DNA of 64,000 nt. Source: Lysobacter enzymogenes. GTDB taxonomy: Bacteria; Pseudomonadota; Gammaproteobacteria; Xanthomonadales; Xanthomonadaceae. The notes beneath the pieces are model-generated. The model had not been told where the DNA came from, did no database searches, and saw nothing but the letters and a program-made list of their open reading frames with translations. Where the stretch lies: assembly GCF_017355525.1 (NCBI RefSeq), contig NZ_CP067395.1, forward strand, positions 4,903,501 to 4,967,500, read 5' to 3'. Positions 38,471 through 40,996 of this stretch are shown piece after piece; positions within the stretch are counted from its first letter, which is position 1; each line of letters starts with the position of its first letter. The position numbers and the translations under genes were made by a program.

Positions 38471-40996
38471 TTACTCGACGCTGACTTCGACCCGCCGCGC
38501 TTCCCGGGCGTCGCCGCCGCCTTCGGTCACCGCCGGCTTGTCGAGTTCGATGCGCTCGCTGGCGATGCCTTGTTCCTGCAGCCACTGCTTGACCGCCTGC
38601 GCGCGCTGCTTGGCCAGTTCGGCATTGGTCGCGGCGCTGCCGGACTCGTCGTGGAAGCCGGAGATGCGCGCCTTGGCGTCGGCCTTGGCCTGCAGCGCCT
38701 GGAGCACGCCGCCGAGATCGCCGGCGGCGGTCTGCGGCAACTGCGAGGAGCCCAGGTCGAAGTAGAGCTTGACGTGGTCGCTCGCGGGCAAGGCGCTGTC
38801 TGCGTTGCCCGTGCCGGCCGCGTCGGCCGCGCCGGCCGAAATCGCGCTGCTGGCGGCGGAAGCGCCCGCCGCCGATGCCGCGTCCGCGCTGGCTTGGGCG
38901 TCGTGCGCCGCGGCCGTGGCGACGGCCGCCTGCGCCGCGACCTCGTCCTGCCCGCGCACGTCGCCGACCGGCAGCAACGGCACCAGCAGCAGCGCGACGA
39001 TGTTGATGATCTTGATCAGCGGATTGATCGCCGGGCCGGCGGTGTCCTTGTACGGGTCGCCGACGGTGTCGCCGGTGACCGCGGCCTTGTGCGCTTCCGA
39101 ACCCTTGCCGCCGTGGTGGCCGTCCTCGATGTACTTCTTGGCGTTGTCCCAGGCGCCGCCGCCGGTGGTCATCGAGATCGCGACGAAGATGCCGGTGACG
39201 ATGGTGCCGATCAGCAGGCCGCCGAGCGCTTTCGGGCCGAGCAGCAGGCCGACCACGACCGGCACCGCGACCGGCAGCAGCGACGGCACGATCATTTCCT
39301 TGATCGCCGACTTGGTCAGCATGTCCACCGCCTTGTCGTACTGCGGCTTGCCGGTGCCTTCCATGATCCCGGCGATGTCGCGGAACTGGCGCCGCACTTC
39401 CTCGACCACCGCGCCGGCCGCGCGGCCGACCGCTTCCATCGCCATCGCGCCGAACAGGTACGGGATCAGGCCGCCGATCAGCAGGCCGATGATGACCATG
39501 TGGTCGGACAGGTCGAACGCGAACAGCTTGCCCGGATGCGCGGTCTGCAGGTTGTGGGTGTAGTCGGCGAACAGCACCAGCGCGGCCAGCGCGGCCGAGC
39601 CGATGGCGTAGCCCTTGGTCACCGCCTTGGTGGTGTTGCCGACCGCGTCGAGCGGGTCGGTGATGTCGCGGATCTCCGGCGGCAGCTCGGCCATCTCGGC
39701 GATGCCGCCGGCGTTGTCGGTGATCGGGCCGTAGGCGTCGAGCGCGACGATCATGCCGGCCATCGACAGCATCGAGGTCGCGGCGATGGCGATGCCGTAC
39801 AGCCCGCCGAGCGCGTGCGCGCCCCAGATCGCCAGACACACCGCGATCACCGGCAGCGCGGTCGACTTCATCGACACGCCAAGGCCGGCGATGATGTTGG
39901 TGCCGTGGCCGGTGGTGGAGGCCTGCGCGACGTGCTTGACCGGGCCGTACTGGGTGCCGGTGTAGTACTCGGTGATCCACACGATCGCGCCGGTCAGGAC
40001 CAGGCCGATCAGCGCGCACCAGTACAGGTTCATCGGGCCGACGCTGGTGTCGCGCATCAGTTCGGTGGTGATCGGGTAGAACGCGATCGCCGCCAGCACC
40101 GCCGACACGATCACGCCCTTGTACAGCGCGCCCATGATCGAGCCGCCGGCCTTAACCTTCACGAAGAACGCGCCGATGATCGAGGCGATGATCGACACGC
40201 CGCCGAGCACCAGCGGGTACAGCACGCCGTTGGCGCCGACCGTGCTCGCCATCAGGCCGCCGAGCAGCATCGTCGCGATGACCGTGACCGCATAGGTTTC
40301 GAACAGGTCCGCGGCCATGCCGGCGCAGTCGCCGACGTTGTCGCCGACGTTGTCGGCGATCACCGCCGGGTTGCGCGGGTCGTCTTCGGGGATGCCGGCT
40401 TCGACCTTGCCGACCAGGTCGGCGCCGACGTCGGCGCCCTTGGTGAAGATGCCGCCGCCCAGGCGTGCGAAGATCGAGATCAGCGACGAGCCGAACGCCA
40501 GGCCGACCAGCGCGTGCAGCGCTTTCTCGCCGGTGACGCCGAGCTTGGCCAGCACCAGCCAGTAGCCGGCCACGCCGAGCAGGCCCAGGCCGACCACCAG
40601 CATGCCGGTGATCGCGCCGCCGCGGAACGCCACGTCCATCGCCGGGCCCATGCCCTTGCGCGCGGCTTCGGCGGTGCGCACGTTGGCGCGCACCGACACG
40701 TTCATGCCGATGTAGCCGGCGGCGCCGGACAGCACCGCGCCGAGCAGGAAGCCGATCGCGGTATGCCAGTTGAGGAACAGCCCGATCAGTACGAACAACA
40801 CCGCGCCGGCGACGGCGATGGTGGTGTATTGGCGATTGAGATAGGCGCGCGCGCCTTCCTGGATCGCGCCGGCGATCTCCTGCATGCGTTGGTTGCCGGC
40901 GGGTTGTGCGCTGATCCAGCGCGCGGACACGATGCCGTAAAGGATCGCGATGACGGCGCAGCCTAGCGCCAGGATCAAACCGTACTGCTCCAGCAT
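38471..40996 (-). CDS. hppA: Membrane pyrophosphatase (H+/Na+-pumping) with C-terminal OmpA-like domain
   Basis: Residues 1 to about 677 are a full M-PPase: many TM segments and the PPi/Mg-binding motifs [19 protein letters not shown] and [14 protein letters not shown], then a second [15 protein letters not shown] block. It couples PPi hydrolysis to cation export at the inner membrane. A roughly 64-residue Ala/Ser/Asp linker (678-741) leads to a 100-residue OmpA/MotB-like domain (742-841, encoded by 38474-38773). That domain has [26 protein letters not shown] and [11 protein letters not shown], matching the peptidoglycan-binding core with its conserved Asp and Arg. In 16-TM M-PPases the C-terminus is outside, so the domain could tether the pump to the wall. 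H+ versus Na+ specificity is not assigned. Confidence 0.93.

Follow-up and report, generated by a model that had tools for sequence, protein, structure and literature searches.

Why an ion-pumping pyrophosphatase (M-PPase) should end in a domain of the peptidoglycan-binding type is the question raised by a single gene in a 64,000-nucleotide stretch of Lysobacter enzymogenes DNA, referred to here as the window. The features of the gene are as follows, with the evidence for each in brackets.

38471..40996, minus strand: whole ORF, M-PPase with a C-terminal OmpA domain (841 amino acids plus stop, ATG start)
38972..40996, minus strand: M-PPase core, residues 1-675, 16 TM helices, K+-independent-type motif at residue 453 (PF03030, 925 bits; superposition on solved M-PPases)
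38777..38971, minus strand: Ala-rich low-complexity linker, residues 676-740 (pLDDT, composition, low within-genus identity)
38474..38776, minus strand: OmpA-like peptidoglycan-binding-type domain, residues 741-841 (PF00691, 59.3 bits; domain model; nearest solved structures)
38648..38650, minus strand: codon of Asp783, ligand-type Asp (alignment to OmpA-type domains; conservation)
38603..38605, minus strand: codon of Arg798, ligand-type Arg (alignment to OmpA-type domains; conservation)

All 20 same-genus genomes searched, the window's own counted, have the fusion in a single open frame, with alignments running over residues 1-841 (to 840 in one), which rules out a sequencing or frame artefact. 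A genome search with the whole 841-residue protein gives one match in its own genome. Those unfused relatives that were inspected end at the last TM helix or a few residues beyond it, or in a tail of 36-82 residues that lacks the domain.

Among the neighbouring genes, sequence inspection alone identifies a soluble inorganic pyrophosphatase-like ORF at 33131-33679 of the window (minus strand), approximately 5 kb from the M-PPase gene, and a gene of this kind also near the M-PPase in relatives L089, L091, L097 and L170. At 35725-37257 (plus strand) lies a gene for an RTX-repeat protein in which Pfam identifies a Peptidase_M91 domain, described there as 'Effector protein'.

The pump core and its topology

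The core is a complete M-PPase, as the original prediction had it: the Pfam H_PPase match (PF03030) covers residues 15-671 with 925 bits and spans the whole profile, positions 1-645 of 645. The top NCBIfam model is titled sodium-translocating pyrophosphatase, a title that most models of the family bear, and TIGR01104 (V-type H+-translocating) likewise exceeds its cut-off. A GNTTKA motif at residue 453 includes the Lys of GNTTK, which we take to be the mark of the K+-independent proton-pumping class, and this points to a putative H+ pump of that class; of the 'proton/sodium' activity first proposed, this rule favours the proton half. The M-PPase motifs that were checked, presumably catalytic, are all present in the ORF and are invariant in 57 of 57 aligned rows, 17 of them unfused. 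A full-length structural model has a mean pLDDT of 82 with a helical core, and the core model superimposes onto 36 listed solved M-PPase chains with target TM-scores of 0.85-0.91 (Foldseek).

Sixteen TM segments were picked by hand from the model, residues 380-435 being counted as one. If both termini are placed outside, the loops hold 23 Lys and Arg residues inside and 7 outside (28 and 9 for Asp and Glu), and the catalytic loops fall inside. The C-terminus is placed outside because of this Lys and Arg distribution and the inside position of the catalytic loops, and in known M-PPases it also lies outside. On the known topology and the charge distribution the appended domain would thus probably be periplasmic, in agreement with what had been predicted, and the hosts COX2, CcoP, PufC and AmtB of the same OmpA subfamily, which bear the domain on a periplasmic terminus, point the same way; the flanking charges of single-TM versions do not.

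The linker and the OmpA-like domain

The linker contains 27 Ala among its 69 residues when counted up to the Pfam boundary (residues 676-744), and pLDDT falls below 50 across residues 698-737 of the full-length model. If the start of the domain is placed 40 residues ahead of the pocket motif, the estimated linker length is 24-73 residues for the window's own family (37 M-PPases) and 22-81 for Burkholderiaceae (17 M-PPases). The OmpA match (PF00691) covers residues 745-831 with 59.3 bits against a cut-off of 27.2, and the domain modelled alone reaches a pLDDT of 90.3. Its nearest solved structures are Acinetobacter baumannii Pal (4g4w), OmpA-like domains (3td3, 3td5 and 3td4) and OprF (5u1h), with query-normalised TM-scores of 0.78-0.82 for the top three matches, 4g4w, 3td3 and 5u1h; 3td5 is a complex with a peptidoglycan peptide and 3td4 a complex with diaminopimelate. 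In alignments with YiaD and further OmpA-type domains, Asp783 and Arg798 match the conserved Asp and Arg, which are presumed to form the ligand-binding pocket for diaminopimelate in those domains. The expected linker and OmpA/MotB-type domain with its core Asp and Arg are therefore both present. The two residues are kept together in 54 of 54 M-PPase copies, which are all full-length cores with a tail longer than 100 amino acids (54 of 113) and were not selected for Asp or Arg.

The 20 genomes of the genus share a mean pairwise identity of 0.94 in the core, 0.32 in the linker and 0.66 in the domain. Pairwise dN/dS for the domain has a median of 0.55 and a range of 0.11-1.23 (186 pairs with dS of 0.15-1.5), against a median of 0.18 for the core (171 pairs), a comparison made difficult by the unusually low dS of the core. 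Close same-genus pairs give approximately 0.1-0.4 for the domain (0.25-0.42 for L001 versus L002-L005), while ratios are 0.57-1.23 between two subgroups of the genus and 0.03-0.41 within the smaller one. By these ratios the domain is under constraint yet fast-evolving. Between L001-L015 and L016-L020 domain dN is about 0.3-0.6, compared to 0.03-0.07 for the core, and the domain might have been swapped for another between these subgroups.

It is proposed that a flexible arm, tipped with the OmpA-type domain, extends from the periplasmic C-terminus of the pump, and that Asp783 and Arg798 of this domain would hold on to the diaminopimelate stem peptide of peptidoglycan. The pump would thereby be held to the cell wall by a linker of about 24-73 residues that leaves the core mobile, and may benefit from restricted diffusion, from clustering or from a fixed spacing between membrane and wall. 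Such a tether is, on balance, the probable explanation of the architecture.

Known systems and published fusions

The C-terminal domains of OmpA, Pal and OprF (PF00691; 3td5, 4g4w and 5u1h) share the fold, the Asp and the Arg with the domain described here, but belong to outer-membrane proteins or lipoproteins. The solved YiaD, 5wtp and 6jfw chains read NRRVE where the M-PPase copies read ARRVE. MotB and similar proteins belong to inner-membrane ion-translocating machines that an OmpA-like domain anchors to peptidoglycan; MotB, however, is a stator subunit that crosses the membrane once, whereas here the domain sits on the 16-TM catalytic pump itself. A further likeness is found in the photosystem I subunit PsaB of Gloeobacter violaceus (7f4v chain aB, 872 amino acids), residues 756-864 of which match the domain profile with 42 bits, although this is an unrelated protein with an ordinary OmpA-level score. 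The structure paper models residues 3-727 of PsaB, and its main text mentions neither peptidoglycan nor OmpA (PMC9000952).

The original prediction knew of no described example of the fusion, a claim which has to be given up. A review reports the same M-PPase-OmpA fusion in Paucibacter and relatives, with a role 'to be elucidated', and gives WP_058719013.1 of Paucibacter sp. KCTC 42545 and four further records in its Table 2 (PMC11210485, PeerJ 2024). Like the protein described here, that of Paucibacter is a predicted K+-insensitive M-PPase with an OmpA-like C-terminal domain of about 110 residues. The organisms covered are Burkholderiales or unplaced Pseudomonadota, and the main text contains no mention of Lysobacter or peptidoglycan; the present case differs in that the window's own family bears the domain on cores of its own lineage. 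Puf-OmpA fusions, in which PufM and PufC carry an OmpA-like domain, have also been described, as rare and with the caveat that wrong gene models could not be ruled out (PMC12650329, Biomolecules 2025). They too join an energy-converting membrane protein to an OmpA-like domain, and PufC is among the hosts found here, with seven copies in open frame; the main text of that paper does not touch on peptidoglycan, pyrophosphatase or oxidase.

Of the other papers, PMC8552683 deals with the ompA promoter only, PMC11762602 with ordinary OmpA, and PMC12487129 and PMC8227023 have no bearing on the fusion. A literature search covering mostly openly available journals gave, among the papers listed, no report of an OmpA domain on oxidase subunits or AmtB, a weak null result, and no paper linking the M-PPase, oxidase, PufC and AmtB fusions. 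The pump-OmpA fusion and the rare Puf-OmpA fusions are thus already in print, and the interest now lies in the module shared across hosts.

A distinct OmpA subfamily and its other hosts

A profile built from 27 fused domains and run against 369 genomes of the class gives matches of at least 92 bits (the window, G256, G282 twice, G165 and G400), the rest among the matches listed scoring 79 bits or less. With a broader profile, matches in 12 chosen Burkholderiaceae genomes score at least 107 bits and then, after a gap, 66 or less; in 60 genomes of the window's own family six matches reach at least 128 bits and are followed by scores of 70 or less. Set off by this gap in bit score, the tail domain is a member of a distinct OmpA subfamily. 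Its traits extend beyond the classical pocket to a KP...ARRVE signature, of which KP and ARRVE are invariant in the M-PPase copies, and these mostly read SG[FY]HD. The subfamily was not found on plasmids: one search gave no match, and a second one matched mostly the pump core.

The subfamily is present at E <= 1e-18 in at least 130 of 260 Burkholderiaceae genomes, the family (f118) being so named from its relatives Rhodoferax, Polaromonas, Acidovorax, Variovorax, Rubrivivax and others. Its hosts there are the following.

M-PPase: L167 (Pfam)
COX2 (cytochrome oxidase subunit II): L131 and L181 (Pfam, with cytochrome c); L188 and L193 (motif only)
CcoP (cbb3 oxidase) with FixP_N: L342 and L343 (Pfam)
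PufC (reaction-centre cytochrome): L180, L191 and L340 (Pfam); L187, L190, L192 and L201 (motif only)
YidB-like: L205 and L341 (Pfam)
AmtB, domain at the N-terminus: L189 and L339 (Pfam; both cut by the locus end)

The C-termini of COX2, CcoP and PufC and the N-terminus of AmtB are periplasmic by established topology, and the AmtB copies open with a signal-peptide-like stretch. In one genome, G831, six different proteins each bear a copy (M-PPase, COX2, CcoP, AmtB, YidB-like and single-TM), and there is additionally one ordinary OmpA match of 63 bits. Both pocket residues are kept in the COX2, CcoP and AmtB copies. Among the named loci (the best 80 of 549) all 82 domains, 33 of which are on M-PPases, have the Asp. 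The ligand Asp is replaced by Ser in seven of seven PufC copies (L180, L187, L190, L191, L192, L201 and L340), so binding cannot be a property of every member of the subfamily.

The domain is also borne by single-TM proteins in Burkholderiaceae, which account for 49 of the 82 domains when classes are assigned by regular expression. In a separate set classed in the same way, some of the rows labelled 'SOLO' are or resemble other proteins, namely AmtB (L189), YidB-like proteins (L202 and L204), a tandem (L182), an M-PPase containing masked bases (L176) and others (L102 and L105). Of 40 segments scored by flanking charges, several of them not single-TM, 34 have the domain on the inside and 4 on the outside, with 2 ties, which suggests that the domain of most single-TM versions may be cytoplasmic, at odds with wall binding. 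Examples with an acidic N-terminus and a basic flank past the TM helix are L183 4405-4893, L170 4308-4793 and L134 4646-5164. In families other than the window's, L132 3380-4894 and L133 3335-4573 (G256 and G400) combine one apparent N-terminal TM helix with this OmpA subfamily; in each case the gene ahead of it encodes a similar C-terminal stretch, and L132 has four Ig-like stretches.

An alternative is that the domain is a periplasmic protein-protein docking module which, through a common partner such as one of the single-TM proteins that also bear it, gathers energy complexes without binding peptidoglycan. It would accommodate the PufC copies that still match OmpA without the Asp, the abundance of the single-TM copies and, in G928 and G725, their location no more than about 1.5 kb from the gene of the fused M-PPase, as well as the conserved features outside the classical pocket. 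Against docking stand the invariant Asp and Arg of the M-PPase copies and their retention on COX2, CcoP and AmtB, and in the 60 genomes of the window's own family the profile search finds no host other than M-PPase that could act as a same-subfamily partner, all six matches lying in frames of M-PPase size (824-957 amino acids). This explanation is considered unlikely.

Distribution and evolution of the fusion

The fused M-PPase is common in Burkholderiaceae and recurrent in the window's own family. Of 200 genomes of the former at least 33 have it (32 end-to-end alignments listed, plus G750) and at least 151 have an M-PPase match; of 60 genomes of the latter 6 have it. A single-sequence search of the class at E 1e-9 recovered the window only and the profile search a wider family, while in the class survey long M-PPase frames without the fusion were seen, among the matches listed, in other families (G194, G298, G120, G413, G317 and G046).

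A quick core tree with SH-aLRT support only and some long rows was built from 99 of 125 distinct cores, 12 partial and 14 near-duplicate or thinned rows having been dropped. The pump cores are family-specific: all 30 Burkholderiaceae cores form one clade (100*), and those of the window's own family form another (98*), together with L030 of family f12 and with the long row L047 outside. That the fused gene passed as a whole from one family to the other is rejected on this basis, L047 excepted. Fused, tail-only and plain forms are interspersed and require 23 parsimony changes, 10 of them forced by supported branches, counts that do not separate gain from loss. Domain-free tails of 36-82 Ala/Pro-rich residues (L085-L097, L214 and L218-L224) are common in genus g338 (12 loci, L085-L096) and make up 8 of the 14 unfused Burkholderiaceae loci fetched; with 23 gains or losses and such tails being common, the domain looks dispensable.

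In a tree of 96 of 107 domains (11 near-duplicates dropped), one clade unites 19 'SOLO' domains with all but two of the 18 M-PPase domains from Burkholderiaceae, and those of the window's own family group with PufC domains (support 82/82). Constraining all M-PPase domains to one clade is not rejected (p-AU 0.059), a result compatible with a single ancient fusion as well as with several.

The patchy presence of the fusion, the tails without a domain and the faster evolution of the domain than of the core, with dN/dS near 1 in some comparisons, would fit a nearly neutral hitchhiker, an extension added by recombination that drifts with no function for the pump. This is more doubtful still, as it conflicts with the open frame in every same-genus genome, the Asp and Arg invariant in 54 of 54 copies, the dN/dS of close pairs and the repeated attachment to unrelated bioenergetic proteins.

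A probable tether to the cell wall

A tether to peptidoglycan is favoured by the peptidoglycan-binding fold with invariant Asp and Arg in the M-PPase copies, by the positive-inside count of 23 to 7 for a predicted outside C-terminus, by the occurrence of the same subfamily on COX2, CcoP, PufC and AmtB, always at a periplasmic terminus, and by the six hosts in G831; the variable linker joined to a conserved domain, with close-pair dN/dS well below 1, would likewise be in keeping with it. Weighing against the tether are the Ser for Asp in PufC, the charges of the single-TM versions, the dispensability of the domain, the subgroup dN/dS of up to 1.23 and the lack of a second host in the 60 genomes of the window's own family.

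The first suggestion for this gene included sensing of the envelope, and in MotB-type domains attachment to the wall can be linked to the activity of a channel. A sensor domain that gates or modulates pumping according to the state of the wall is nevertheless improbable, since a long disordered linker would pass on little strain, the same module sits on proteins without a common mechanism, and the core motifs are just as invariant in the 17 unfused rows of the 57. Complexes unrelated to one another bear the domain, which makes a pyrophosphate-specific role unlikely as well.

On the tether reading, the pump is one use of a mobile module that Burkholderiaceae carry on the periplasmic end of a number of energy-converting proteins of the inner membrane. 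A wider possibility, put forward tentatively, is that a dedicated, transferable tether of this OmpA subfamily fixes inner-membrane energy machinery of some Burkholderiaceae to the wall (the proton-pumping pyrophosphatase, aa3- and cbb3-type oxidases, the photosynthetic reaction-centre cytochrome and the ammonium transporter) and so forms a wall-anchored bioenergetic membrane domain, and that in the window's own family it fixes the pyrophosphatase. If this is true, bacteria would be able to fasten central bioenergetic complexes to the wall by means of an exchangeable part, and the long-standing question of what organises energy complexes in bacterial membranes and limits their diffusion would be made testable by removal of a small terminal domain that leaves the enzyme itself intact.
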